DNA of 64,000 nt, taken from positions 1 to 64,000 of the forward strand of contig MPMM01000010.1 of assembly GCA_002238505.1 (NCBI GenBank). Direction: 5' to 3'. The translations under genes and the position numbers were made by a program. How positions within the stretch are numbered: the first letter of the stretch is position 1; each line of letters starts with the position of its first letter. The DNA is from SAR202 cluster bacterium bin22 (GTDB lineage: Bacteria; Chloroflexota; Dehalococcoidia; Lucifugimonadales; UBA3495). Under the pieces are notes generated by a model. That model had not been told where the DNA came from. It did not search any database and saw only the letters and a list, made by a program, of their open reading frames with translations. Shown one piece after another: positions 13,750 to 27,204 of this stretch.

Positions 13750-14940
13750 ATGATTACCAAATTTGGCAGCCTGTTTGCCGGGCACGTGGACTTTGAAGAT
13801 ATCGGGCTGGACGCCACCGCGTTGAATGACCGCTGGCTGCCGGACGAGCATCTGGCCACCGTTTTCGACAAGGCGGAGGCCATTGCCGGCGTGATGGACC
13901 GGCTGGACTACGAGACTTTCTGGATGGCCGAGCACCATTTCCAGCGAGAAGGGTACGAGTGCATCCCTAATCTGATGCTGTTTGCCGTCCATCTGGCCCA
14001 CCTGACCAAGAAGCTCAAGATCGGATGCGGCTTCAACATCGCTCCCATGTGGAACCCCCTGCGGATGGCGGAAGACTACGCCACCGCCGACATTCTGACC
14101 GACGGCCGCGTGGTGTTCGGCGTGGGCCGGGGATACCACACCCGCGAAGTCGAAACCTTTGACGCCCCGATAATTGACCAGGACGCCAACCGCGAGCTGT
14201 TTGAGGAGCAGGTGGAGGTGATGTTCAAGGCCTTCAACGAGCGCTCCTTCTCCCACCACGGCAAGCACTACAACATCCCGCCCGACGTACCCTACCGTGG
14301 CTACGACCTTAAGGAAATTACCCTGGTTCCTCGCCCCAAATACCTGCCGGTAGAGTGCTACCAGCCGGTGGTGGGCGGCAGCCAGCGCGCCATGGACTTC
14401 ATGGTCAAGCACGGCATCAAGGGCATGATCGGCGGCGGGGCGGCGGCCGGCGGCGCTACCCTGGATGTGGTGCGCAGATGGCAGGAAACCCTGGCCAGGG
14501 CCGGCAAGGAGACCGAACTGGGCGGAGACCTCATTATCGGGTTCTCCATTCACCTCGCCGATACCGAGGAAAAGGGCATGAACGAGGCCAGGCTGTTCTT
14601 CGAAGAGAACATGAAGATGTTCGCGCCCCTGGGCTTCTTCCACGGCCTGTCTGACGACCAGCTAATTGCCCTCGGCGACCCCTCCCGGGCGCGTTCCGCC
14701 GGACTGCCGACAATCGAGGACGGCGTCCGTGCCGGCTCCTGGCTATGCGGCCCTCCGGAACTGGTGGCGGAAAAACTCAACAAAATCCAGGAAATGTACC
14801 CCGGCCTGACCCAGATTAACGTGGGTTCGGTGGTGGGCACCCCGCAAAAAGTCATCCTGGAACAACTGGAATGGTTCGGCAAAGAGGTCATGCCCCAGTT
14901 CAAGGCCCAGGCCAACGTGGCCGTCCCGGCCGACAACTAG
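13750..14940 (+). CDS. LLM class flavin-dependent oxidoreductase
   Basis: A 396-residue luciferase-like monooxygenase. Landmarks are Y-E-T-F-W-M-A-E-H-H-F (about 56-66), G-C-G-F-N-I-A-P-M-W-N-P-L-R (about 94-107) and D-I-L-T-D-G-R-V-V-F-G-V-G-R-G-Y (about 115-130). It belongs to a different branch from the 11.9-kb paralogue, with longer loops. GGAGGGG lies 6 bases before the ATG, and a TATAAT box stands at 13701-13706 about 45 bases before the start. Cytosolic FMN enzyme; substrate unknown. The stop at 14938-14940 abuts a repeat array. Confidence 0.88.
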   Translation: MITKFGSLFAGHVDFEDIGLDATALNDRWLPDEHLATVFDKAEAIAGVMDRLDYETFWMAEHHFQREGYECIPNLMLFAVHLAHLTKKLKIGCGFNIAPMWNPLRMAEDYATADILTDGRVVFGVGRGYHTREVETFDAPIIDQDANRELFEEQVEVMFKAFNERSFSHHGKHYNIPPDVPYRGYDLKEITLVPRPKYLPVECYQPVVGGSQRAMDFMVKHGIKGMIGGGAAAGGATLDVVRRWQETLARAGKETELGGDLIIGFSIHLADTEEKGMNEARLFFEENMKMFAPLGFFHGLSDDQLIALGDPSRARSAGLPTIEDGVRAGSWLCGPPELVAEKLNKIQEMYPGLTQINVGSVVGTPQKVILEQLEWFGKEVMPQFKAQANVAVPADN

Positions 14941-14954
14941 CACCCGACCAAACA

Positions 14955-15153
14955 ATCCCTTCCCCCTCGACGGGGGAAAGACCAGCATGGGTCCGACGCG
15001 CCCCAACAAAATAATCCCTTCCCCCTTGAAGGGGGAAGGTTAGGATGGGGGTGACGCCCTCCAACCAAAACTCCCTTCCCCCCTACGGGGAAACGCCAGG
15101 ATGGGGCCGACGTGCCCCAACCAAATAATCCCTTCCCCCTCGACGGGGGAACG
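14955..15153. repeat. array of ~58-bp degenerate repeats (left part)
   Basis: Four units of the form AATCCCTTCCCCCTCGACGG, a GG(A/T)-rich spacer, GGATGGGGCCGACG and a CCCCAACC tail. The array continues at 26761; the transposon 15154-26760 interrupts one unit precisely. Confidence 0.8.
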
Positions 15154-15232
15154 CGGGTTTGCTCCAAAAAGCCATTTTGCTCCAATAATCAGAAGCTTGC
15201 TCCAATAAGGCCGATGTGATTATGCATCGTCC

Positions 15233-15326
15233 ACTTTTTTGTCGAAACTCACTTGACCCGCCTACTTACCATAGATAGTAGGGGCATCAGTCTCCTGTTC
15301 GACTGAACGCCCCTCTATCTCTACGA
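15233..15326 (+). repeat. 94-bp direct repeat R1 (promoter-bearing)
   Basis: Nearly identical to 17750-17843. It contains TTGACC (15253-15258), 17 bases, TAGTAG (15276-15281), a weak promoter pattern. Downstream sequence diverges after CTCTATCTCTACGA, so the leader RNA seen after R2 is missing here. The rest of 15174-15375 has only TTGCTCC subterminal repeats. Confidence 0.7.
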
Positions 15327-15375
15327 GGCAAGTGCAAAACTCCACGGCACATAGTTGATTGACGCTTCTGCTGCC

Positions 15376-15624
15376 TTAAGAAACAAGACGCCCATCAATA
15401 ACGACTTGTCCGCTACACGACTGTAGTACGACTTGCCCACTGTGTCTGGTCACTACGACCTGTCCACTGCAATCTTCAACTACCGTCTGCCCACTGCCTT
15501 GCTTCACAATTATCTGACCGCTAGCTCTCTCGAAAGTCACTTTACCACTACCGGAGCTAACAACCCAGTTACCCTCTGCGTCTATTTCAAGAGTTCTATC
15601 CGAGTCAGGGAAAGTGTATTTCAT
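15376..15624 (-). CDS. short SGQ-repeat protein, unknown function
   Basis: 82 residues. The second half is made of five repeats of about nine residues beginning S-G-Q followed by alternating hydrophobic residues (S-G-Q-I-I-V, S-G-Q-T-V-V, S-G-Q-V-V-V, S-G-Q-V-V-L, S-G-Q-V-V-I), which predicts a small beta-solenoid or stacked hairpins. The first half includes D-R-T-L-E-I-D-A-E-G-N-W. No signal peptide. AGGAGGG lies 5 bases before the ATG. It is the leftmost gene of the transposon, convergent with the promoter repeat R1. I do not recognise the family. Confidence 0.6.
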   Translation of the reverse strand: MKYTFPDSDRTLEIDAEGNWVVSSGSGKVTFERASGQIIVKQGSGQTVVEDCSGQVVVTRHSGQVVLQSCSGQVVIDGRLVS

Positions 15625-15964
15625 ATCGCCCTCCTAGGTTTTGCAGAATACAGACAGGTCAAAATTTACCCTTAATCTAATCATACCAAGTTTAACCAAG
15701 AGGGCGGGTATGCAAAGGGCCGGCTTTGCTGAAAAAGTCGTTACCGATGCATAAGTCGCCAAACTGATGAAAAAGTCCCGTTTGAACCGCCACGTCAACT
15801 TTGGCGGGGAGGTTGATTTTGCCCAGTTCTCTCCATAGGTTTGGTTAAGCTACTTCAGGTGAAGCCACTGACCCTAACTACCCTGTGGTTCTATTGTCGC
15901 CAGTGCATTTATTTATCAATTGTTCATTGGTTGTTATGCCGTCCACGGTATTGGAAATGGTTCT
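15625..15964. other. intergenic region inside the transposon
   Basis: No convincing gene. A segment near 15730-15790 has two copies of a GAAAAAGTC block. It probably holds the promoter of the SGQ-repeat gene and the end of the HNH gene transcript. Confidence 0.4.
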
Positions 15965-17032
15965 TCAGCGTGAAATCAAAGACAGTTGGGGCATCACATC
16001 ACCGATTGGTACATAAGAATCTCCCCCAAACTCACACCAGCATCCCTCGCTTCGATTATGGGTATGCTTCCGTTTTCGCACCTGTTGGACACCCCCGGCC
16101 CAATCAGCAATCAAGGGCCGTAAGCTTGCGTGTCCGTTTTCTACGTTGTCTATGATTCGTTGTAGGCCGTCACTGTCCATTGCATACCAGCGTCCAAAAA
16201 AGGTGTAGTTCAGGTCAGCCCAAAAATCTGTTTTGCCCAAGTAATTTGCGCACCGCCACAATTTCTTGCAAGTTCGGCACTCAAACACCGCCGATTCTCC
16301 GGGTAAATCTGCCTTACTGACCAAGACAGCGACCTTCCCGCAGAAAACACAGGATGCCGAATCGCTATCAGCCCAAAGGGTGCTTTCCACTACTGGCAAA
16401 AGGATGTCCACTATAAGCTGGAATCCTTCCCGTTTATGAAGGGCTCTCTGTATCCGGTTCAACTTAACCCTAAAGTCGCTGTCACTTAACGCATTCTTGC
16501 TAGTGTTGCACAGGGAACAAGTCAGATGGATATTGCCCTCAATTGTTTCTCCACCTTGGACTAATGGAACGATGTGGTCACGGTGATACTTTCTCCCTTC
16601 ACTGAACGGACTACCCTTGCCCTTTAGCTCTGCTTGGCAGTACGCACACCGCCATTCTTGGCGTTCACCGATGGCGAGGATGTTTATTTTGCTTAATTGG
16701 TATCTTTCCCTTTGTTTAGCCGCATTTTCGACGTTGATGTTCAAGCGCATCGGATGCCACTTGGGGAAAGCCTTGCGCCGTTGGAAGGTAACCCCCGCCC
16801 AAATACGGAAGACAGAGAGCGGGTATATGCCGAGTTCTTCAGCTAATTCCTCAACTCTCTGTGGGGAAGGTGGCCCCATTGGAAGTTGCTCTCTAATCTC
16901 TGCTACATCGTCATCTGACAGTCTGTTCCTTTCCCTTCGGCTAAACGTGTGATGCCATTCTGCCTGCAATAACTCCCAATGGGTTGATGCTTCGTATTTT
17001 GAATGTTCATCAGGGCTACCCACACCAGTCAT
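15965..17032 (-). CDS. HNH endonuclease with C-terminal zinc ribbon
   Basis: 355 residues. The nuclease core is W-R-C-A-Y-C ... Y-H-R-D-H-I-V-P-L-V-Q-G-G ... N-I-H-L-T-C-S-L-C-N-T-S-K-N, a complete C-x2-C HNH metal-finger fold with His-Asp-His-Ile at the active site. Upstream is a helix-turn-helix-like segment (V-E-E-L-A-E-E-L-G-I-Y-P-L-S-V), downstream a second zinc ribbon (C-V-F-C ... C-R-T-C-K-K-L-W-R-C). The start at 17032 follows AAGGGG by 8 bases; a longer frame to 17155 would run into a TTGCTCC end repeat and lacks a ribosome site. It probably cuts DNA, either in homing/transposition or in defence. The stop is TGA, followed by 23 further open codons. Confidence 0.82.
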   Translation of the reverse strand: MTGVGSPDEHSKYEASTHWELLQAEWHHTFSRRERNRLSDDDVAEIREQLPMGPPSPQRVEELAEELGIYPLSVFRIWAGVTFQRRKAFPKWHPMRLNINVENAAKQRERYQLSKINILAIGERQEWRCAYCQAELKGKGSPFSEGRKYHRDHIVPLVQGGETIEGNIHLTCSLCNTSKNALSDSDFRVKLNRIQRALHKREGFQLIVDILLPVVESTLWADSDSASCVFCGKVAVLVSKADLPGESAVFECRTCKKLWRCANYLGKTDFWADLNYTFFGRWYAMDSDGLQRIIDNVENGHASLRPLIADWAGGVQQVRKRKHTHNRSEGCWCEFGGDSYVPIGDVMPQLSLISR

Positions 17033-17194
17033 TTTCTTACCCCTTGTATCCGTCAAATCATTTGTCTCAAACCGCACACCAAAGGGCATACGGCGATTTG
17101 CTCCAATAATTGCTAGTTTGGCCGATGCACGGAACAACCGTAGCTGGGTGTCCACGCTAGTCGGTCGGTCGAGAGAAGTGGAAGATTCACACGC

Positions 17195-17476
17195 CTAAAT
17201 GCCCAAGAATGGTTTTTGCTCCGGTGTAGGTTCAGGACGAAGGGACGACTGGTACTGCTGTAGTCCCCCAATATTACCCTCGCTTCGAGTCCATTTGAGA
17301 CTACAGTTATCACACTGAAGGCGTGTCAACTTGCGCCAATTACCTCTCAAGGGAACGTCTTTATTTTCGTCCAAAATGCATAGTTCCTGAAGACCCCTAA
17401 CGTGCGTCTGTTGGGAAATATCTCTCTCATATTGCTTCAGACGGGATATGCAATCTGAACAAGGTTCCCAAGTCAT
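17195..17476 (-). CDS. small zinc-ribbon-like protein
   Basis: 93 residues starting M-T-W-E-P-C-S-D-C. Two C-x2-C pairs (C-S-D-C near the N-terminus and C-D-N-C near residue 69) suggest one structural zinc site. The ATG at 17476 follows AAGGAAGGTGGAG; a longer frame to 17605 would cross a 14-bp palindrome and has no ribosome site. The family is not recognised. It lies upstream of the HNH gene on the same strand and could be its partner in a two-gene unit, but the 162-base gap holds an end-type repeat, so this is uncertain. Confidence 0.5.
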   Translation of the reverse strand: MTWEPCSDCISRLKQYERDISQQTHVRGLQELCILDENKDVPLRGNWRKLTRLQCDNCSLKWTRSEGNIGGLQQYQSSLRPEPTPEQKPFLGI

Positions 17477-17507
17477 AGCTCCACCTTCCTTGTATCCATA
17501 CTCATGG

Positions 17508-17541
17508 TAAAAGCTGCGGTGTGTGACCACCGCAGCTTTTA
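17508..17541. terminator. 14-bp palindrome, bidirectional terminator-like
   Basis: Perfect stem 17508-17521 with 17528-17541 (TAAAAGCTGCGGTG and its complement), A/T-rich at both feet. It lies 31 bases upstream of the small zinc-ribbon gene, so on the minus strand it could act as an attenuator or end an upstream transcript. Confidence 0.5.
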
Positions 17542-17716
17542 CTATGCCGGTAGCTAAGAGAAATGGCAAGGAAAAGTGAAGGGGCCAGACATTCACTCGT
17601 CCCAAACTCGATGCACCAAAATAGACTTGTGGCCGCTACACTGTCATTCTCAACCCTGCTATTTCCCCCTACCAAGAGTGATTGATGCCCAGCGTGTACT
17701 TCGCCCCAACACGAGC

Positions 17717-17757
17717 AAAGTTGCGGGGCAGAATTTACACTGCCCCGCAACTTTTTT
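17717..17757 (+). terminator. intrinsic terminator before promoter repeat R2
   Basis: A 14-bp stem (17717-17730 with 17741-17754) runs into TTTTTT. It insulates the following promoter; no plus-strand gene between 17542 and 17716 can be supported. Confidence 0.7.
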
Positions 17758-17843
17758 GTCGAAACTCATTTGACCCGCCCACTTACCATAGATATTAGGG
17801 GCATCAGTCTCCCGTTTGACTGAACGCTCCTCTATCTCTACGA
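17750..17843 (+). repeat. 94-bp direct repeat R2 with promoter
   Basis: Second copy of 15233-15326. TTGACC (17770-17775), 17 bases, TATTAG (17793-17798) forms the likely promoter for the lipoprotein gene at 18012. Its -10 is nearer consensus than that of R1. Confidence 0.65.
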
Positions 17844-18004
17844 TGGCACTTGCGACGGTTGCCCTTTCAACGCCTTGGTAAGTAGGAACCCTTCGGTGAA
17901 GCTTTTGCTGTTTAGGACGGCACGTTTTTTCGTGCCCTCTTTGCGGTTCATCGTTGGGTTTGTGCAACCGTCGCAAGTGCCAATCCTTAACTCCGCAAAG
18001 GGGG
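17844..18004 (+). ncRNA. structured 5' leader, candidate cis-regulatory RNA
   Basis: A perfect 19-bp long-range stem pairs 17844-17862 with 17964-17982 and closes a ~100-base domain. Inside is a GGCACG/CGTGCC hairpin with a T6 loop (17919-17936). Immediately beside it 17935-17946 can pair over 12 positions (one G-U) with 17993-18004, which contains the GGGGG ribosome site of the gene at 18012. The two states are topologically in conflict, as in switches that hide a ribosome site. No known riboswitch class is recognised. Positions are read from sequence; the switching is inference. Confidence 0.55.
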
Positions 18005-18011
18005 TTCCCTT

Positions 18012-18671
18012 ATGGCTCGTTATATCCCCAGCATTTGGCTCTTGTCTCTGGCCCTGCTTCTCTCCGCCTGTAGCACAGCTCCGCCCCCAGCACCTACCCC
18101 CGACATTCCCGCCACCGTGACCGCCCAAGTCCAAGAGCAATTGGCTACCAAGCCAACGTCCACCCCAGTCCCTACTACCACACCCAATCCTACCTTGGAA
18201 CCCAAACCTGCCTACAAGCGCATCCCCAAGGGCTACCCTTACACGATAAACGTACCCGCCGATTGGCAATCAAAAGTGAACAACGCCGATAACTGGGCCG
18301 AATACGTCTTTGGCGACCCGGATAGCTACTCAGCCACAATCAGGGTGACTGTTGGACGCTCCGGTGGCCCTTTACCCTTTGACTCAGAAACTCTCGCAGA
18401 TATTACGCTGGAAGAGTTGGAAGGTAATTCAGTAGAGGACAGTTTCCAGCTTAAGGAACGGCGCACTTTGGCCGATGGTGGAGTATGGCTATCTGTTAGC
18501 TTTCGGAAAATGCATCTTTGTCAGCGTGAGGCGGTGGCTCTGGTGCTGGTGTTGCCAAGATATGCTTTCATGGTTGAAGGGGCTACGTGTGAGGACGAAT
18601 GGGACGAGTACGAAATCCTGATGGTGGAAGCGGTAGAAAGTTTTGCTTTTGAGCCCGGTTCTTGGCGTTGA
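18012..18671 (+). CDS. lipoprotein with Pro/Thr stalk
   Basis: 219 residues. A type II signal peptide ends in the lipobox L-L-S-A-C (Cys about 20), then a Pro/Thr-rich linker containing P-D-I-P-A-T-V-T-A-Q-V, then a globular domain (Y-T-I-N-V-P-A-D-W ... V-E-S-F-A-F-E-P) resembling small PsbP/DUF-type stress domains only in outline. Anchored to the outer face of the membrane. The ribosome site GGGGG ends 7 bases before the ATG and can be masked by the leader RNA. The stalk motif also occurs in the chromosomal lipoproteins at 36-40 kb. TGA stop; a large terminator follows at 18813. The function is unknown. Confidence 0.75.
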   Translation: MARYIPSIWLLSLALLLSACSTAPPPAPTPDIPATVTAQVQEQLATKPTSTPVPTTTPNPTLEPKPAYKRIPKGYPYTINVPADWQSKVNNADNWAEYVFGDPDSYSATIRVTVGRSGGPLPFDSETLADITLEELEGNSVEDSFQLKERRTLADGGVWLSVSFRKMHLCQREAVALVLVLPRYAFMVEGATCEDEWDEYEILMVEAVESFAFEPGSWR

Positions 18672-18812
18672 CGAGCGAAGCCCTGACACCGGATGCCCCC
18701 TAAAGACGTCCCGCCAAATCCGGCGGGGCGGTTCATATATTGACCTTCATAGGAATAGTAGGTATCATCAACTTCATAACCTAATCTGCCGCCTCGTGCG
18801 GTTTTGTTGGAG

Positions 18813-18872
18813 CAAATGAATGTGGAGCAACCCCCAGTGATTGGGGGGCCACTATCATTTGCTTATTTTTTT
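18813..18872 (+). terminator. long hairpin terminator after lipoprotein gene
   Basis: Nested stems CAAATGA/TCATTTG, GTGG/CCAC and CCCCCA/TGGGGG are followed by CTTATTTTTTT. The left arm overlaps two inverted copies of the transposon end motif TTGCTCC. It lies in the otherwise empty 18672-18953 gap. Confidence 0.7.
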
Positions 18873-18953
18873 GTCAAACAACTAAGGGTTTCTTGGGTTC
18901 GGCTCACATTAGGCAGAAATCCCAACTTCGAGTAGTGGTAAAGGGTGAGTGAG

Positions 18954-21257
18954 ATGAAAAACAGGTCAAGAGCTTGGCTGTCAATGCTGATATTCCTGTT
19001 GGCGGTGGTGTTTGCCCTTGGCGCACTGGCGATAGCGGGTGACCAAAAGACGAAACAAGGGCCGCAGGGCGCATTTACCGAAGCCGTTTATTCGTGTGCC
19101 AAGCAGGAAACCAACTCATCGGGCCAAACGGTGTTTGTTGCGCCGGACAGAATACCGGACGGGCTATTCACCTATGACGTAAGCACGAAAGACTTTATTG
19201 GCGGGGCGATTAGCCTTCCGAGAGTTGATTCCATTCCCGCCGGTAGTGATTTGCCGGACGGCGGACGGCCCGGTTGGTATTTCCGGTCTGCGCCGTTGTG
19301 TAACCGTGATGCCAGTGCAGGGACTACGGATTCTCTCTGGCTTTCGACCTTCACCGTTGACCCACTGCAAACCCCTGAATCAATGCCCGTGTCATTCAGC
19401 CCGCCGTTTCGGGCTGGGGCTAGAGGGCCGCAAGGCCCACAGGGACTTTACCCAATCTATGCTTATGCCCAGCAAACTGCGGGGCAAACAGTTTCAAGAG
19501 GGCAACTGCCCACTGAATGGGCGATAGACCTTACCACGGGGGAGATAAGTGGCTTAAACGGACACTGGGCACCGAATCCCTTCCAAGTCAATGCCAATGC
19601 GGTTCTTTGGACTACGTTCACCATCGTCAATCCGGCGCAATGGCCGGGATTGGCAAATATTGACGAAACGAATACCTGTACGGATAGCACATCGGCAACA
19701 ACGTGCGAGACTACCCAAACCCGCTATTGGAGTACGCCGATTCAATGGTCTGGCACACCGGGGGCGGCGGGCGCACCGGGTAGTAGTGGCATTCAGGGAG
19801 TCACTGCGGGTACAGGCTTGTCCGGCGGTGGTTCATCCGGCGTAGTCACCCTAGACATAGAGACTCCCTACACGCCGGACGAACAAAACAAGCTTGCTGG
19901 TATCGAGGATGAAGCCACACGGGTTGAAGCCAACCCAATCGTGGGAACAAGCCAAGTTTCTTCCACGAACCTCAATCTGCTTGAAGTAAGCGGGCAGTAT
20001 TACAACCTCCCTGCTGGAGAACAGGGTAAACAGGGGCGGTACCGGATTGAGATATACGGTGAAGCTCCGGCAAACTCACCGCTGACCGCCCCAATTGGCG
20101 GGCAGGTGAACGTCCAGACGGCCCAAGTTACCGCCCCTCCCGATACGGCTGTCCAAATCCTTGGTTCAGCGTGGTCTGTAGAGCTTTTCCCCCTTGCCGA
20201 CCCGGTGAACAACGTCCTGTGGATTAGCACGTATTGGGTGAATCCACAATTCCAAAGCGGCGTACTCACGCCAAACTGGAGTACGCCTGTCGTTTCCGGG
20301 GAGCTTGGCCCACAGGGATTGCAGGGTGAAGTTGGATTATCGGTTCAGCCGATGTTCCTTGAGACTGCTACTCAACCCACCAAGCCGGACATAGCCTACG
20401 CTTCAAACCATACCTTCACATCCACGCCGACCGGCTGGAACGTCAACCCGCCGCCCACTCCCTCAGACCCAATTTGGCTAATTCTGGTTAGGCATCAAGT
20501 TGGCGTCTTTACGGCCTCGATTGACCCGAACCTGATAACAACTCCAATCAAGGTGTCCGGTACGGATGGGCAGGAAGGGGATTCAGGATGGAGTCCGCAA
20601 TTTGCCATAGTAGCGGACGGTGACCGGCGGGTACTGCAAATTACCGGCTGGACGGGCGGTACTGGAACTGCCCCGGCTTCCGGCCTGTACGTGGGCGCTA
20701 CTGCCCTTGTTTCAAGTCTGGCGGACGGCGTTGACATACGAGGGCCATCCGGGGCGGGAAACGAGCGGGAGATTCTGCTTGACGAACTGGACGATGCTAC
20801 GGGCCGCAACCTGCGGGTTACCCAAACGAACTTCGCCCAATTCGATTCTTCTCATCAAGGGTATTTCTCCTTCCGCCCCATCACGGAAGCCGATTTGGGA
20901 AAAGACCTGCTTTGGTATGGCAAATTCGATGTGATAGGCGGGACCAATGACGGGACCCTGCTGGAAGACCGAATTTGGCACGTCAGGATTCCGGTTGAAG
21001 TCTATCTCCAGATGGGCATCGTTACGCCCGCAAGCGTTGACCCCATCGACAATGTGTTTATGAAGTCAACATCTCGCATCGGCATTGACTTCATCAGTCG
21101 CAATGAGCAAAGCACGATATATGTAGCCCGAATCTCACAAGAAACGGTTGATGGGGAAACTTTCGACCGCATCGCTGTGAGCATCGCAAAGAGGGTAAAC
21201 GTAACTGGCAACGTTTATAGGGTCACAGCCTTTAAGACTGCCATAGTTTTGCGGTAA
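18954..21257 (+). CDS. large secreted repeat protein with collagen-like segments
   Basis: 767 residues. One N-terminal membrane helix (L-S-M-L-I-F-L-L-A-V-V-F-A-L-G) anchors or exports it. Short collagen-type triplets G-P-Q-G-P-Q-G, G-A-P-G and G-L-Q-G-E-V-G separate beta-rich modules that share the pattern L-W-(x)-S/T-T-(x3)-V-N/D-P followed by a Trp-Ser-T/P strand; at least four such modules can be seen. The layout resembles phage tail fibres and bacterial surface adhesins. The ATG at 18954 is preceded by AAAGGG; a GTG three codons earlier is less well placed. The gene is the largest cargo of the transposon and follows a lipoprotein, so a cell-surface role is likely. Confidence 0.72.
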   Translation: MKNRSRAWLSMLIFLLAVVFALGALAIAGDQKTKQGPQGAFTEAVYSCAKQETNSSGQTVFVAPDRIPDGLFTYDVSTKDFIGGAISLPRVDSIPAGSDLPDGGRPGWYFRSAPLCNRDASAGTTDSLWLSTFTVDPLQTPESMPVSFSPPFRAGARGPQGPQGLYPIYAYAQQTAGQTVSRGQLPTEWAIDLTTGEISGLNGHWAPNPFQVNANAVLWTTFTIVNPAQWPGLANIDETNTCTDSTSATTCETTQTRYWSTPIQWSGTPGAAGAPGSSGIQGVTAGTGLSGGGSSGVVTLDIETPYTPDEQNKLAGIEDEATRVEANPIVGTSQVSSTNLNLLEVSGQYYNLPAGEQGKQGRYRIEIYGEAPANSPLTAPIGGQVNVQTAQVTAPPDTAVQILGSAWSVELFPLADPVNNVLWISTYWVNPQFQSGVLTPNWSTPVVSGELGPQGLQGEVGLSVQPMFLETATQPTKPDIAYASNHTFTSTPTGWNVNPPPTPSDPIWLILVRHQVGVFTASIDPNLITTPIKVSGTDGQEGDSGWSPQFAIVADGDRRVLQITGWTGGTGTAPASGLYVGATALVSSLADGVDIRGPSGAGNEREILLDELDDATGRNLRVTQTNFAQFDSSHQGYFSFRPITEADLGKDLLWYGKFDVIGGTNDGTLLEDRIWHVRIPVEVYLQMGIVTPASVDPIDNVFMKSTSRIGIDFISRNEQSTIYVARISQETVDGETFDRIAVSIAKRVNVTGNVYRVTAFKTAIVLR

Positions 21258-21332
21258 ACCCCGTTCCACCCGCTAATGGTTTCTGCGTCAGGTGAGGCCA
21301 GACGCAAATCTGCTGACTGCAAGGGAGTGTCT

Positions 21333-21821
21333 ATGCGACCCGCTTTAATGGCCCTTATATTTCTGGTTCTGGCATTCTCAATGGCTTGCATAGCTCCGGC
21401 AACACCCACCCCTTCGCCGCCACCAACTACTAGCCCGCCACTGAAACCTTTGAAGGTAGTAATGCCTACACCGGAGCCGCCCGCCACCGACGCAGAAAAA
21501 CTCGCATTGGGTACCTTGGCCGAAAAAACTGCGAAGGGGCTGTATGAAATCCGAGAGGAATGCGTTAGCCAGGAAATAACGGGGAAGCTCTCCCTGAATG
21601 TTGCAGAACTATTCATCAAAGGGGAGGCCATCTACGAGACCATCGCAATGGAAATAGAAGCATTCGATGTGGCCCACGGAAGCGATTTAAGTGATATAAC
21701 GACACCGCAAAAGTTTAACGACCTGCTTACACTCACTCTCGCAATGGAATACGCCGCTTTAAGGCTTGAGGCAATTTGCGGTCAACCAGTAGGGGACGAG
21801 CAAGAGCAAGATGGAGAATAA
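21333..21821 (+). CDS. small lipoprotein
   Basis: 162 residues. The signal peptide M-R-P-A-L-M-A-L-I-F-L-V-L-A ends in the lipobox F-S-M-A-C; a Pro/Thr linker (about 22-52) leads to a helical domain rich in Ala, Glu and Leu with two further Cys (E-E-C-V and A-I-C-G). AAGGGAGTG precedes the ATG at 21333; a start 19 codons earlier would place the signal peptide internally. It lies 75 bases after the large secreted protein and ends at a strong terminator, so the three surface proteins (18012, 18954, 21333) form one functional block. No recognised family. Confidence 0.7.
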   Translation: MRPALMALIFLVLAFSMACIAPATPTPSPPPTTSPPLKPLKVVMPTPEPPATDAEKLALGTLAEKTAKGLYEIREECVSQEITGKLSLNVAELFIKGEAIYETIAMEIEAFDVAHGSDLSDITTPQKFNDLLTLTLAMEYAALRLEAICGQPVGDEQEQDGE

Positions 21822-21825
21822 ACAA

Positions 21826-21855
21826 CAAGGCCGGGGCATTTAAGCCCCGGCCTTG
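21826..21855. terminator. bidirectional intrinsic terminator
   Basis: A perfect 12-bp stem (21826-21837 with 21844-21855) lies between the converging genes that end at 21821 and 21876. Confidence 0.75.
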
Positions 21856-21875
21856 TGCTGGTGTGCCACTTTTGC

Positions 21876-22079
21876 TTACTCCACTCTTTCCTCTAAATGG
21901 GCAGAATAGTCCATTGCTTCCATCAAGTCTGCTACACGAGTAACTACTTTACCATTGTGCCGTATTTCCCAATGCGGCGGAACCATATTCATAGGAACAG
22001 CAACCAAAGTGAAATTCCCTCTGGTGTACGCTGGCTTGCCTTCTAATTCTTGCTGTGTCCACTTACTCTCAGTTGTCAC
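21876..22079 (-). CDS. small protein of unknown function
   Basis: 67 residues, soluble and acidic at the C-terminus. W-T-Q-Q-E-L-E-G-K-P-A-Y near the start and P-P-H-W-E-I-R-H-N-G-K-V-V-T-R-V in the middle suggest a small alpha/beta fold with a beta hairpin. Translation would start at GTG, with AGGAG 9 bases upstream. It lies opposite to the surface-protein operon and upstream of the tRNAs, inside the transposon. The family is not recognised; real coding is supported by the ribosome site and by the terminator shared with its neighbour. Confidence 0.5.
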   Translation of the reverse strand: MTTESKWTQQELEGKPAYTRGNFTLVAVPMNMVPPHWEIRHNGKVVTRVADLMEAMDYSAHLEERVE

Positions 22080-22274
22080 TTACAACGACTCCTTTCATTG
22101 TTTTTTCACGGTGACGCAACAGGGACTGCATTGACTCCTGGCTATTGCCGTCAGATTGTTGTAAAATTTATGCAATAAAAAGAACGGCGGGGCTAACCAT
22201 CGCAAAAGCAACCCCCGCCGTCTATACCTACCACCGCCAAACCAACAAAGGAGGTCTTGCAGCAGTTTTATCGT

Positions 22275-22347
22275 GGCCCCTTAGCTCAATGGATAGAGCA
22301 TCCCATTTGCGACGGGCAGGTTGTCGGTTCGAGTCCGACAGGGGCCA
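22275..22347 (+). tRNA. tRNA-like gene, anticodon most likely TGC, body Arg-like
   Basis: A 73-base cloverleaf: acceptor GGCCCCT/AGGGGCC, D-arm GCTC-AATGGATA-GAGC, T-arm GTCGG-TTCGAGT-CCGAC, discriminator A, no encoded CCA. The anticodon arm is poor: only CCC/GGG pairs, flanked by T-C and A-C mismatches, with loop TTTGCGA. Read symmetrically the anticodon is TGC (Ala), yet the G3-U70 alanine signal is absent and the body with A20 resembles bacterial arginine tRNAs. It may be decayed, or a chimera with odd charging. Confidence 0.65.
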
Positions 22348-22388
22348 CTCAATTTTAGGGGTTTGCACCCCCGCCAAATATGGTTTAC

Positions 22389-22481
22389 GGGTCAGTGGCA
22401 GAGAGGCCGATTGCGCCTGACTTCAAATCAGGTAGGGTGATAGCTCCACCCTCGCAGGTTCGAATCCTGTCTGACCCGCCA
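22389..22481 (+). tRNA. tRNA-Ser-type with anticodon TCA (opal suppressor)
   Basis: 93 bases with encoded CCA. Acceptor GGGTCAG/CTGACCC (7 bp), D-arm GCAG-AGAGGCCGA-TTGC, anticodon arm CCTGA-CTTCAAA-TCAGG, a long variable arm with a 6-bp stem AGGGTG/CACCCT, T-arm GCAGG-TTCGAAT-CCTGT, discriminator G. All arms are intact. The long variable arm and G73 are serine-tRNA features, and SerRS does not need the anticodon. The loop differs from the usual Ser(TGA) loop CTTGAAA by one base, giving TCA, which reads UGA. Selenocysteine tRNA was considered but needs an 8-bp acceptor stem and a 6-bp D stem. It should insert Ser at UGA codons. Confidence 0.82.
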
Positions 22482-22551
22482 GACCGCCTATTGACGGCCT
22501 ATCTCTATTATATAGACCTGCCAAGCAGATACAAGCAAGGGATGAAATACA

Positions 22552-23088
22552 ATGAATGAAAACAGCCGTGAAGGACAATATATTCCAACTGACCGGGCTT
22601 TCAATACCTTGAGCCAAAGAGCCGCTGATTTGGAAAGAGAAGCAAGAGCATTGCAAAAAGAAGCAGAGGCTTTGTGGATGAAGCGTGAAGGTGTACTGGA
22701 GTCCCTGCGCTGTCTTGAGGGTGAATCGGTGGACTTCGAAAATGCGGCCAACCAGCAAGCAGACGTTTCGACCCAATCCCCGCTGTTGCCAGAATCATTG
22801 AGTAATCTCACCGTTGAATTTGAAGGTGCCAAAACCTACAAAGAAAAGGTGTTAAGAGTGGCCGTTGCCGCTGGGAACGATGCGGTGCTAAACACAAGCG
22901 AAGTTGCGAGATTCTTGGAGGGTTGTGGGCAAACCACGTCATCGCTGGACAGCACTCGCACTTCAGTCCACAGGGCATTTGACGACCAACCGGAATTGTT
23001 TGAAAAGGTGGAAGAAGACAAGGGTAACTGGCGATTGATTCAACAAAGTGAGGATGTGCGGTATGACGAAGAATCAGACAATTACTAG
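22552..23088 (+). CDS. coiled-coil/winged-helix protein
   Basis: 178 residues. Residues about 18-60 form a coiled coil (L-S-Q-R-A-A-D-L-E-R-E-A-R-A-L-Q-K-E-A). Residues about 95-165 look like a winged helix (V-L-R-V-A-V-A-A-G ... L-N-T-S-E-V-A-R-F-L ... S-V-H-R-A-F-D-D ... G-N-W-R-L-I), the W-x-L ending being typical of such wings. Probably DNA binding and dimeric. AAGGGA lies about 10 bases before the ATG. It starts 71 bases after the suppressor tRNA and overlaps the next gene, so it heads the transposase operon and may regulate transposition or bind the ends. Confidence 0.6.
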   Translation: MNENSREGQYIPTDRAFNTLSQRAADLEREARALQKEAEALWMKREGVLESLRCLEGESVDFENAANQQADVSTQSPLLPESLSNLTVEFEGAKTYKEKVLRVAVAAGNDAVLNTSEVARFLEGCGQTTSSLDSTRTSVHRAFDDQPELFEKVEEDKGNWRLIQQSEDVRYDEESDNY

Positions 23089-23488
23089 AATAGACAAGGC
23101 GATGAAGAAATCCCAGACCCAGCGAGACGCCATTGATAATCAGTTGTTTGACCTGGCTGTGGCCCGCAACTACGCCCGCAAGTTTGCCAGAGACGAAGAA
23201 CGGGCGAGGACGGCAAACAACTTTGGCCCAACCAAGCGGGCCGTAGCCGATGCGATGTTTGAAGTCTTGCGGAAGGAACGTCCGCTACACCGGAAGGTGA
23301 TTCTGGAACGCATTCAGGCCAAGGGCGTCCCCATTGACTCCAAGAAGCCAGTGGACTACATCGCCCAACTGCTGACTCAGGACGCCAGTTTTGCACGGGA
23401 AGCAGGGATGCGAGGGTACTGGACGTTTTCCAACAGGGGCTTGGAAATGTGTCAAAACTCCTTGACAAGAAGAAGACAATTGACTTGA
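23063..23488 (+). CDS. HARE-HTH-like DNA-binding protein
   Basis: 141 residues. A basic helical N-terminus is followed by a C-terminal winged helix (about 65-130): A-V-A-D-A-M-F-E-V-L-R-K-E-R-P-L-H-R-K-V-I-L-E, then D-Y-I-A-Q-L-L-T-Q-D-A-S-F ... G-Y-W-T-F, matching the HARE-HTH pattern. The ATG at 23063 has GTGAGG 9 bases upstream and lies inside the end of the previous gene, implying coupled translation. The stop is TGA (23486-23488). Beyond it the same frame stays open through 24 codons into the transposase, so UGA read-through by the suppressor tRNA at 22389 would give a DNA-binding-domain/transposase fusion. Confidence 0.6.
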   Translation: MTKNQTITRIDKAMKKSQTQRDAIDNQLFDLAVARNYARKFARDEERARTANNFGPTKRAVADAMFEVLRKERPLHRKVILERIQAKGVPIDSKKPVDYIAQLLTQDASFAREAGMRGYWTFSNRGLEMCQNSLTRRRQLT

Positions 23489-23500
23489 GTACAACAAAAA

Positions 23501-23535
23501 GAAGCCGCCGAAGGCTGGAACCCTTCGACAGCTTC
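23501..23535 (+). promoter_or_regulatory. stem-loop 12 bases after an in-frame UGA
   Basis: GAAGC/GCTTC and CGAAGG/CCTTCG stems separated by a 3x3 internal loop, apical loop CTGGAAC. It stands between the UGA of the HTH gene and the transposase ATG. It may promote read-through, as stem-loops after leaky stops do, or shape access to the transposase ribosome site AGGGAGG at 23542-23548. Confidence 0.45.
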
Positions 23536-23560
23536 TACCAAAAGGGAGGATGATTCCCCT

Positions 23561-24985
23561 ATGGCTACTGATAATCTTAACAGCACAAGTCAAGCCTATA
23601 CCGACAAAAAACCCCGCAAGTCCCCGGCCAAGAGAATCAGATTGGCAACCGCACTCGGCCCCAGCGACCCTGACGATGGCGACATTGGACGCCAGCAAAG
23701 GGGCCTCGCTATAGCGGCACTTTCCACTGTCAAGAAAACCAAGGTAGGCTACAAAGTGCTTTCGCAGTCGGGCAACGGCACTTACGCTGTTCGCTTGGAC
23801 GGTGAATACGGCCCAGCTTGCGAATGCCCGGACTTCGATACTCGCAACGCCAAATGCAAGCACATTTACGCCGTAGAGCTTTACCAGATGCGGGAAGAAG
23901 ACCCTGCCACAAGTCCGGAATGGACTGATATGGCGCAGGAAGCGGAACCCGTCAAAAAGCCCACGTACTCGCAGGACTGGCCGGCCTACAATGCCGCCCA
24001 AAAGAATGAAAAAAGGGACTTCGGCAGGCTTCTCAGGGACTTATGCGATGTCATCGAACAACCAGCCCAAGGCCGGGGCCGTCCACGAATGCCAATGTCC
24101 GATATGGTGTTTGCCGTCACCACCAAAGTTTATTTGCTAATGTCAGCACGGCGGATAATGCCCGATATTGAAGACGCCACTGAAAAAGGGCAGATGGACA
24201 GGGCACCTTCCAGCACAAGTATTTGGCGGTATTTGGAGAAGCCAGAGTTGACCCCGATTCTAAAGTCGCTGGTCGAGCAAAGCGCACTTCCCCTGAAGGA
24301 CTTGGAAGACGACTTTGCGGCAGATTCAAGTGGGTTTGGAACCAGCGTGTATGACCGCCATTTTGAGGACAAATGGGGAGGCAATGCGGGCGAGGAAGGC
24401 AGACAGTACAATCCTCCGCACAAGCGGTCAAAGTACCTGATGGCTCACGTTGCCTGTGGGGTGCGCACCAACATAATCACCGCCGCTGTGGTCAGGACAG
24501 ACCGAAGGCACGACTCAGTGTTTTTTCCTGAATTGGTGGAGACCACTGCACGGAATTTCACAATTCGGGAGTTCTCGGCAGACAAGGCATATTCAACCAA
24601 GGATAACCTTGTTGCGGTGTTGGCGGCGGGCGGTACGCCCCTTATACCGTTCAAGAAAGACGCAAACCCGAACACTGGACACCACAAGAAAGACCCGGTG
24701 CGAGACAACCTTTGGGCCTTGATGTACCATTATTTCCACCTGCGGCGGAAAGCCTTCAATGACCGTTACCACAAGCGGTCTAACGTGGAGTCGTGCTTCC
24801 ACATGATGAAGTCGCAGTTTGGCGGGTTCGTCCGTAGCAAGACCCCTACAGCGCAGGTCAACGAAGTTTATGCCAAAATCCTGTGCCACAACATAGTGGT
24901 ACTGGTGAAGATGATGTACAAGCTCAAAATTGACCCGACTTTCGGCCTCAGCGAGGAACAAGTGGAGTTGCCGATGGCCGCATAG
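23561..24985 (+). CDS. tnp: SWIM zinc-finger DDE transposase
   Basis: 474 residues. A basic N-terminus leads to a SWIM finger (C-E-C-P-D-F-D ... C-K-H-I-Y-A-V-E, about 87-107), then a DDE nuclease of the IS4/IS5 type: first Asp in D-D-F-A-A-D-S-S-G-F-G, second in F-S-A-D-K-A-Y-S-T, and Glu in R-S-N-V-E-S-C-F-H-M-M-K-S-Q-F-G, the Y-R-E-K-like block. All three catalytic residues are present and the frame is intact, so it may be active. GGAGG ends 11 bases before the ATG, so independent initiation is possible. It is in frame with the preceding gene across one UGA. Three hairpins follow the stop. Confidence 0.88.
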   Translation: MATDNLNSTSQAYTDKKPRKSPAKRIRLATALGPSDPDDGDIGRQQRGLAIAALSTVKKTKVGYKVLSQSGNGTYAVRLDGEYGPACECPDFDTRNAKCKHIYAVELYQMREEDPATSPEWTDMAQEAEPVKKPTYSQDWPAYNAAQKNEKRDFGRLLRDLCDVIEQPAQGRGRPRMPMSDMVFAVTTKVYLLMSARRIMPDIEDATEKGQMDRAPSSTSIWRYLEKPELTPILKSLVEQSALPLKDLEDDFAADSSGFGTSVYDRHFEDKWGGNAGEEGRQYNPPHKRSKYLMAHVACGVRTNIITAAVVRTDRRHDSVFFPELVETTARNFTIREFSADKAYSTKDNLVAVLAAGGTPLIPFKKDANPNTGHHKKDPVRDNLWALMYHYFHLRRKAFNDRYHKRSNVESCFHMMKSQFGGFVRSKTPTAQVNEVYAKILCHNIVVLVKMMYKLKIDPTFGLSEEQVELPMAA

Positions 24986-25016
24986 CCTCGCCAGACAGTC
25001 AATACCCACGGAACAA

Positions 25017-25050
25017 GAAAGGCCCTGTGAATGGATTCGCCGGGCCTTTC
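25017..25050 (+). terminator. intrinsic terminator after transposase
   Basis: A 9-bp stem GAAAGGCCC/GGGCCTTTC followed by ACTTTG, 31 bases after the transposase stop. Confidence 0.65.
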
Positions 25051-25128
25051 ACTTTGCCTTGGTTTCAATTCAGAGGGAAGGCAAAAACTTCCCCCAGTGA
25101 GATAAACCACATAAGCTAGACAAAGCAA

Positions 25129-25162
25129 AAGGCCCTGCTGTCGGCAACAGCCACAGGGCCTT
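25129..25162 (+). terminator. second intrinsic terminator
   Basis: Stem AAGGCCCTG/CAGGGCCTT with an inner CTGT/ACAG stem, followed by CCTCTT. A third hairpin, AAGAG-CGGCTC/GAGCCG-CTCTT, lies at 25211-25239. Together they isolate the last genes of the transposon; nothing else is seen in 24986-25375. Confidence 0.6.
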
Positions 25163-25375
25163 CCTCTTGTGTCTTGACAGATAAGGGACTGCCCGGAAAC
25201 AATAGCAACGAAGAGACGGCTCTTGGGGAGCCGCCTCTTACACCAAACCGACCACCGGCTAAGGAAGGTTGCTGTTTGGCTATTTGATTTTCCGGGAATC
25301 CCCGGGTGCTTGTCAAGTAACCTTGTGCCCTTCCTGACATGTCGCCAGTGGTTGGTGGACTAAGGAGAGGCAGAT

Positions 25376-25453
25376 ATGGAAGGATTGGTTGTAGCTGTCG
25401 CTGGCTCGGTTATTGCCGTTTTGATAATCGCCAAAACCCTCAGCGGGCGGTAG
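25376..25453 (+). CDS. 25-residue hydrophobic peptide
   Basis: Twenty-five residues: M-E-G, a continuous hydrophobic stretch (L-V-V-A-V-A-G-S-V-I-A-V-L-I-I-A) and a polar tail K-T-L-S-G-R. It is a single membrane helix. AAGGAGAGG ends 5 bases before the ATG, a very strong ribosome site, which is the main reason to accept such a short gene. It precedes the nuclease gene by 57 bases on the same strand. Small membrane peptides of this kind can be type I toxins or membrane-protein partners; no antisense RNA was identified, so the function is open. Confidence 0.5.
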   Translation: MEGLVVAVAGSVIAVLIIAKTLSGR

Positions 25454-25510
25454 TGAAAGAGAAGGGTAGGGCGCATTATACAAACCATAAGGAAGAGAGG
25501 CTAATGACAC

Positions 25511-26434
25511 TTGGATACAAAACGATACGATGTGGGGAAATGGTACGAAAACCAGATAGACTACTTGCTTCGTCGCTCAGGACTCAACTTCTGCCAACAA
25601 CCTAAAATAGACAGGCATACGCCGGATTTCTTGATTTTTCAACCCAACGGGCCAGAAGTTATCATCGAGTGCAAGGCACGATACGACGGACAAGAGGATA
25701 GGACAAAATGTTTGGAATCCCAGCGAAAAGAAGCGGAAACCTTAAGGCGGATAGCTCGACGCAACATTGACCTTTATTCCCGCAGAGACCCTTTGGGAAA
25801 CAATGAGCTTAATTCCTATCTGCTCGATGGCGCCCGAATGGACTTGGAAAGGGCAGACGCTATGAAGAAAGGAGATTTTCATTCGTGTGGGGGAAATATC
25901 GGGGAGTTATTTGGGGGAGTATATGATGCCCTAAAAGAAAAGGCGAGAACATACAAGGGTATTACTGACGGCAAGCCGTATGTTATTGCTCTGTATCACG
26001 ATGCTTGTCAGGCAGACATTTCTACAGCCTTGTCACTCTGCTTTTCACCTCGTATTCCATCCATTTCATGGACGTATGAAGGGGATAATTTGGATAAGGA
26101 AATACATCTTGAGAGTAGATGGGTTGATGCGTGGTCTGTTGAAGAACAGGAAGGGATTTTTTATAAGTACAAGCACGTTTCAGGGCTAATCTATTCTGCA
26201 TGGGAGCGTAAACACTTCTTCCTTCCAAACCCATTTGCCCACATACCTGTTAGTGCTGACCTATTCCCTTTCACGAGCGTTCCTGATGCACCGCTACTAA
26301 ACGGTTCACCTGCATGGGTTCCTCGACAGGCCACCTTGACCGACGACTACTTACGTCCACCAAACACCTACTGGGGACTACTTGATTTGTTGTGTCAAGA
26401 TTTAAGGAACGAAATTAAGCGACGTGATGCGTAA
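25511..26434 (+). CDS. PD-(D/E)XK nuclease-like protein
   Basis: 307 residues. Near the N-terminus W-Y-E-N-Q-I-D-Y-L-L-R-R-S-G-L is followed by H-T-P-D-F-L-I-F-Q and V-I-I-E-C-K-A-R, spaced as the Asp and Glu-x-Lys of the PD-(D/E)XK nuclease fold (about residues 35-60). The remainder includes P-Y-V-I-A-L-Y-H-D-A. The likely start is TTG at 25511; an ATG seven bases earlier opens a different, short frame. It could be a restriction-type or repair nuclease carried as transposon cargo. No methylase accompanies it. It ends 326 bases before the right transposon end. Confidence 0.6.
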   Translation: MDTKRYDVGKWYENQIDYLLRRSGLNFCQQPKIDRHTPDFLIFQPNGPEVIIECKARYDGQEDRTKCLESQRKEAETLRRIARRNIDLYSRRDPLGNNELNSYLLDGARMDLERADAMKKGDFHSCGGNIGELFGGVYDALKEKARTYKGITDGKPYVIALYHDACQADISTALSLCFSPRIPSISWTYEGDNLDKEIHLESRWVDAWSVEEQEGIFYKYKHVSGLIYSAWERKHFFLPNPFAHIPVSADLFPFTSVPDAPLLNGSPAWVPRQATLTDDYLRPPNTYWGLLDLLCQDLRNEIKRRDA

Positions 26435-26515
26435 TTGTAGTCGTGGATGTATGGGAGCAAGGTTAGCGTCGATTGACGAGCGACAATCAAAGCCAACAAA
26501 GTGGAGGAGGGGTAT

Positions 26516-26596
26516 ATGATTAGAGTGAATTTCAATAATGAAAAAGGCCGGAGCGTCAAACCGCTCCGGCCTTCTTGTTGGTTCCCGGAAACCTAG
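26516..26596 (+). CDS. possible 26-residue peptide over the last terminator
   Basis: Starts M-I-R-V-N-F-N-N-E-K after GGAGGAGGGG, a strong ribosome site, and is read through the hairpin at 26544-26573. The hairpin spells part of the peptide (G-R-S-V-K-P-L-R-P). No known family. It could equally be a leader-type or chance frame. Confidence 0.25.
   Translation: MIRVNFNNEKGRSVKPLRPSCWFPET
26544..26573 (+). terminator. intrinsic terminator near right transposon end
   Basis: A perfect 12-bp stem AAGGCCGGAGCG/CGCTCCGGCCTT followed by CTTGTT. Confidence 0.7.
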
Positions 26597-26695
26597 CGGA
26601 CTATATCTCTTGAAAGTTTTTGCCCTCCCTCAAGTCAGAATCATCTTGTCCGGGTCGGGAAAGGCTGATAGGCTAGGAAAGTCCTCCTGTGCGTG

Positions 26696-26730
26696 TCTGC
26701 TCCTAAAATCTACCGTCTGCTCCTAAAATC
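26696..26730 (+). repeat. two subterminal repeats TCTGCTCCTAAAATC
   Basis: Direct copies at 26696-26710 and 26716-26730, 20 bases apart, just inside the right inverted repeat. They resemble the TTGCTCCAATAA repeats inside the left end and are probable transposase-binding sites. Confidence 0.55.
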
Positions 26731-26760
26731 GGTTGAATCGGGCTTTTTGGAGCAAACCCG

Positions 26761-27085
26761 GGGAACGCCAGGATGGGGCCGACGCCCTCCAACCAAAACT
26801 CCCTTCCCCCCTGACGGGGAAACGCCAGGATGGGGCCGACGTACCTCAACCAAATAATCCCTTCCCCCTCGAAGGGGGAGGGTTAGGATGGGGGGGCGGC
26901 CCTCCAACCAAAACTCCCTTCCCCCCCGAGGGGGGGGGGGGTGTGGTGGGGGGGTAACGCCCTCCAACCAAAACTCCCTTCCCCCTCGACGGGGAACGAC
27001 AGGATGGGGCCGACGTACCCCAACAAGATAATCCCTTCCCCCTCGACGGGGGAAGGTTAGGATGGGGGTGACGCCCTGCCAGCAG
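26761..27085. repeat. array of ~58-bp degenerate repeats (right part)
   Basis: Continues the array from 14955-15153 with about five more units (CCCTTCCCCC...GGGG, GGATGGGG, GCCCTCCAACC). Long minus-strand frames across it are compositional and are not called as genes. Confidence 0.8.
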
Positions 27086-27204
27086 TCGCCGCCAGCCCGC
27101 TGAATAAATCTCAAAACGGCTCTCGTACCAAAAGAACATTGCACAGCAACAACCCGAAACCGGCCCTGACCACAACTACCACCGGACTCAACGACACATA
27201 AACT

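Follow-up and report, generated by a model that had tools for sequence, protein, structure and literature searches.

The window (the whole 64,000-nucleotide stretch of DNA analysed here) contains a transposon of 11,605 bp (11.6 kb; positions 15155-26759) that encloses two tRNA genes, one of which, at 22389-22481, has a UCA anticodon in a serine-type body. The features of the transposon and its flanks are as follows.

15146-15154, no strand: left copy of the target-site duplication, GGGGAACGC
15155-15210, plus strand: left terminal inverted repeat GGGTTTGCTCCAAAAAGCCA and subterminal TTGCTCCAATAA repeats
15965-17155, minus strand: cargo ORF with an HNH endonuclease domain (Pfam HNH, 35.5 bits)
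18012-21821, plus strand: stretch of cargo ORFs, two of them lipoprotein-like (18012-18671 and 21276-21821) and one of 770 aa without family assignment (18945-21257)
22275-22348, plus strand: irregular tRNA, anticodon TGC, with mismatched anticodon stem ends and CCA not encoded
22389-22481, plus strand: putative opal-suppressor tRNA, Ser-type, UCA anticodon, G73, CCA encoded (ARAGORN, Rfam)
22552-23088, plus strand: ORF A, coil and predicted HTH-like region, stop TAG
23063-23488, plus strand: ORF B, coil and HARE-HTH-like domain (below the Pfam cut-off), stop TGA at 23486-23488
23500-23536, plus strand: hairpin between the UGA and the transposase start (z -3.1 for 23486-23572)
23544-23549, plus strand: GGGAGG, Shine-Dalgarno-like, before the transposase ATG (from the sequence)
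23561-24985, plus strand: transposase with SWIM zinc finger and DDE_Tnp_1 domains (67.7 and 22.5 bits)
25511-26434, plus strand: cargo ORF, weakly TnsA-like endonuclease (below cut-off)
26696-26759, minus strand: right terminal inverted repeat GGGTTTGCTCCAAAAAGCCC and two subterminal TCTGCTCCTAAAATC repeats
26760-26768, no strand: right copy of the target-site duplication, GGGGAACGC

The two inverted ends, GGGTTTGCTCCAAAAAGCCA beginning at 15155 and GGGTTTGCTCCAAAAAGCCC on the opposite strand up to 26759, carry subterminal repeats and are flanked on both sides by the 9-bp target duplication, and since these ends and the duplication surround both tRNA genes, both tRNAs lie inside the transposon. 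In congeners the gene that ends near window position 14940 directly adjoins the one at about 27190, and the window is longer by 12 kb at this point; the empty syntenic site is clearest in G003:C540 and G004:C43. All the hallmarks of a DDE transposon (transposase domain, inverted ends, target duplication and empty site) are present, and from the last three of these the element is evidently mobile. They bear out the first-pass annotation of this DNA, which had the tRNA carried by a transposon. Many relatives of the transposase have a similar end (consensus GGCTTTGCCCAATAAGTC) soon 3' of the transposase stop and again upstream, and an inverted repeat at 25073/26614, the first guess for the right end, was replaced by these family-type ends at 15155 and 26759. 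The element sits in REP-like palindromic arrays (14950-15150 and 26760-27108) that are dispersed in the genome, and the element L116 of the congener G004 (described below) is likewise inserted in a REP-like repeat.

The 22389-22481 tRNA is called by both ARAGORN and Rfam (RF00005, 55.8 bits, E 2.5e-9 for the window), and its cloverleaf is intact, with an acceptor stem of 7 bp, anticodon and T stems of 5 bp each (a 7/5 body), a long variable arm, G73 and an encoded CCA. Its anticodon loop, CTTCAAA (anticodon TCA), differs by one base from that of the host tRNA-Ser(UGA), CTTGAAA, and the two tRNAs are 82% identical over the aligned columns. An intact Ser-type tRNA with these features, one loop base away from a normal Ser(TGA) tRNA, is what had been described at first pass. 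The long variable arm and G73 are serine identity features, and SerRS ignores the tRNA anticodon. By this established SerRS biology the tRNA should be charged with Ser and decode UGA, that is, act as an opal suppressor. Allo-tRNAs also combine Ser-type features with non-Ser anticodons, stop anticodons among them (Mukai et al. 2017, reviewed in PMC7609411); the element tRNA has this combination and, with its 7-bp acceptor helix, lacks the 8/4 or 9/3 acceptor branch of allo-tRNAs. The D loop of the neighbouring irregular tRNA (22275-22348) appears Arg-like by eye.

The TGA that ends ORF B shares its reading frame with the transposase, whose ATG lies at 23561, and the 24 codons from one to the other are all open. 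Because there is no second stop between them, readthrough would give an HTH-transposase fusion: if the TGA is translated, the product has 640 aa and matches SWIM, DDE_Tnp_1 and, below cut-off, a HARE-HTH-like domain. With an ATG and a GGGAGG motif of its own, the transposase does not depend on readthrough for its synthesis, a point that counts against a suppressor role for the tRNA. This in-frame UGA, the full extent of the element and the relatives described next are new over the first-pass annotation.

The same triad of a UCA tRNA or RNA, an HTH ORF and an in-frame UGA ahead of the transposase is found in three diverged elements, namely that of the window, L116 in the congener G004 and L108 in the same genome as the window; the transposases of the latter two are 48-55% identical to that of the window. 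L116 is an 8-kb element (G004 C8:34846-42873, on a contig that matches MAG RHO1_bin_4) bounded by inverted ends and a duplication of 9-10 bp, in which a UCA tRNA (61.3 bits) is followed by a HARE-like HTH ORF, two UGA codons with no other stop, and a transposase with 55% identity to that of the window. L108 (host contig C42) has a UCA RNA, an HTH ORF of another type (which ORF A resembles by eye), one UGA and the transposase. Its RNA, at L108:684-754, is 71 nt long with UCA, G3:U70, A73 and CCA and is without a normal D arm, which again counts against the suppressor reading; at its ends there is a weak match to the tmRNA model (22 bits). Between the window and L116 tRNAs there are six two-sided base-pair changes and no broken pair, and the anticodon loop CTTCAAA is identical, as would be expected if selection had maintained a working UCA tRNA.

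Among the HTH-bearing elements examined a tRNA turned up only in these three, each time with a UCA anticodon. For three in-frame, UGA-only junctions, multiplying the chances gives about 4e-5 (1/3 for the frame, 1/3 for UGA as its share among host ORFs, and the chances of no stop), a rough guide only, which ignores relatedness and has the L116 spacer one base off. The three UCA elements are related and hence not independent, which counts against the suppressor reading, as do several other findings: the spacing of the hairpins 3' of the UGA is not conserved among the three; L122 and L123 have a UGA, and L128 a UAG, in frame with no detectable suppressor tRNA; and L129, also with no detectable suppressor tRNA, has its HTH ORF out of frame with the transposase. 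The in-frame design is thus wider than the UCA tRNA, and it is present in 6/7 HTH-bearing elements (chance about 0.007 at 1/3 each, relatedness ignored). A conserved, hairpin-rich stretch of more than 100 nt between HTH ORF and transposase in elements of G005 and G013 (L136:3590-3770, L138:3215-3440 and the other strand of L137) is a candidate RNA; its reading as a translated linker 3' of the UGA was set aside, since conservation is at the DNA level and the stretch is hairpin-rich by eye. Inspected matches to the tRNA-Sec model in G001, G004, G005 and G013 yielded no further opal suppressor, TCA being found only in selC and the L116 tRNA.

Beyond these elements, the window transposase family was represented by 118 non-redundant loci from bacteria and archaea. 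At 20/118 of them a tRNA lies on the transposase strand no more than 1.5 kb upstream (in one of the 20, L234, it is a tRNA array outside the left end of the element), against 1/118 with one on the other strand and 2/109 with one downstream of the transposase. The family carries tRNAs more often than by chance. The first-pass view that a transposon bearing a suppressor tRNA next to its transposase operon is unusual has to be narrowed, given that irregular tRNAs recur in the family; what stands is that UCA together with an in-frame UGA is a special case. Many of the family tRNAs are irregular, with varied anticodons (body assignments by eye): that of L196 has the Ala pair G3:U70 with a Leu anticodon, that of L175 a Glu-like body with UUA, and those of L167 and L178 combine a long variable arm and a Cys anticodon with an acceptor of 9 bp, which is the 9/3 geometry published for allo-tRNAs (PMC7609411). 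The L175 tRNA (L175:3524-3597, Planctomycetota MAG) is a transposon-borne case of a TTA anticodon, which would read UAA, and is followed by a second tRNA-like stretch. Upstream of the transposase in both L220 and L230 is a tRNA with an anticodon loop of eight bases (GTCT and CGCA), a candidate frameshift suppressor. We note also irregular tRNAs near ORFs resembling IS1595-type and IS1-type transposases (L383:6192-7521 and L380:1713-2660). Searches of viral, plasmid and phage collections gave only more distant transposases, none with the window arrangement.

We consider the tRNA to be best read as an opal suppressor that the element encodes for reading through UGA, with a probability of roughly 0.45. 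Host SerRS, blind to the anticodon, would charge it with Ser, and the charged tRNA would compete with RF2 at the UGA of ORF B, so that a fraction of ribosomes would pass into the transposase frame and make the HTH-transposase fusion; the remaining ribosomes would stop at the UGA, and transposase alone would start from its own ATG. The transposon would thereby set the ratio of transposase to fusion, and would bring the required tRNA along to new hosts. More tentatively, this may be a DDE transposon family that encodes its own nonsense-suppressor tRNAs and uses programmed UGA readthrough to fuse a DNA-binding ORF with the transposase. It would then form a self-contained recoding system inside a larger family of transposons that carry irregular tRNAs and would be a natural home of allo-tRNAs.

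That the UGA is instead read as selenocysteine by host Sec machinery, with the element tRNA a Sec-related variant, is very improbable. The UCA anticodon and the hairpins 3' of the UGA would fit it, as would the SelA gene and the true selC found elsewhere in the host genome (67.5 bits with the Sec model, anticodon TCA), but the element tRNA scores 42.6 bits with the Sec model (RF01852), below the cut-off of 47 and below its 55.8 bits with the ordinary model, its body is 7/5 where bacterial tRNA-Sec is 8/5, the UGA junction has no Rfam RNA near its threshold, and the hairpin spacing differs among the three elements. The first-pass annotation had thought tRNA-Sec unlikely and had proposed a Sec covariance model and a search for host selA and selC as checks; these results support it, and identification as tRNA-Sec was rejected. 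Reassignment of UGA to sense in the host, which it had named as fatal to its reading, was likewise ruled out: RF2 is present (442.9 bits) and TGA ends 40/119 long host ORFs, about one third, so the host does not use UGA as a sense codon. An apparent rarity of UGA as a host stop in a small sample (4/34 ORFs) was gone with the 119 ORFs. The host tRNA-Ser genes have the anticodons TGA, CGA, GCT and GGA.

The main rival to UGA readthrough is a general transposon module of irregular tRNA and HTH protein whose anticodon is free to vary, the tRNA miscoding in the host (addiction or stress) or titrating a synthetase, or a processed RNA regulating the transposase, with the UGA incidental or serving translational coupling only. 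We regard this as possible though rather doubtful. Irregular tRNAs with many anticodons lie upstream of window-type transposases, and the sense anticodons of these sister tRNAs, unrelated to UCA, count against the suppressor reading; several elements tested gave no sign that the transposase is recoded at sense codons by its own element's tRNA, and such recoding was rejected because these codons are used in the normal way at highly conserved Cys, Leu, Ala and Asp columns. The same host family has tandem irregular tRNAs directly ahead of a coil-HTH ORF (L381:31-759 in G004 and L382:5419-6169 in G013), each a pair of a short type and a long-variable-arm type with sense anticodons, and a transposon or toxin-antitoxin link has been proposed for allo-tRNAs (PMC7609411). 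A freely varying anticodon fits poorly with the UGA-only in-frame junction in 3/3 UCA elements and with a UCA that was kept while the stems changed. The same stems, intact and with six compensatory changes relative to L116, and the strand and position bias of tRNAs across the family make it unlikely that the tRNA is passive cargo, captured and decaying without a role beside a UGA in frame by chance, in spite of the mismatched stem ends of the neighbouring tRNA, the variation of cargo from element to element and the relatedness of the elements, which lessens the weight of recurrence. UGA readthrough appears the economical reading, and sequence alone cannot decide between it and a miscoding or regulatory tRNA-HTH module.

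The window transposase shares its DDE_Tnp_1 catalytic domain, inverted ends and target duplication with the IS5/IS1182-like transposases of NCBIfam (best match IS5, 101.5 bits, below the cut-off of 140), and differs in its N-terminal SWIM finger. Transposases of the IS1/IS3 type make an OrfAB fusion by programmed frameshifting. Recoding would similarly fuse an HTH ORF to a DDE ORF in the window element, with the difference that the obstacle to be passed would be a UGA codon and that the element itself would encode the tRNA acting in trans. If this is correct, it would be to our knowledge the first transposon to control its own transposase through a suppressor tRNA that it supplies; literature searches, with subscription journals mostly outside their coverage, found no paper on a transposon-encoded suppressor. 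In recoded phages a stop codon serves as a sense codon across the phage genes. Such phages and their suppressor tRNAs (PMC9523058, PMC12386605) resemble the window element in that a mobile element brings a tRNA reading a host stop codon, whereas the window element has its UGA at a single junction before the transposase, and normal stops, UGA among them, close its other ORFs. Allo-tRNAs, for which a link with transposons has been suggested, with role and link left speculative (PMC7609411), are alike in having G73 and a long variable arm with a non-Ser anticodon, and L167 and L178 of the transposase family have their 9/3 geometry; the window tRNA is unlike them in its canonical 7/5 acceptor branch and in its UCA anticodon beside an in-frame UGA in the operon of its own element. 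If the proposal holds, such transposons would provide allo-tRNAs and other irregular tRNAs of bacteria with a genetic home that can be tested.
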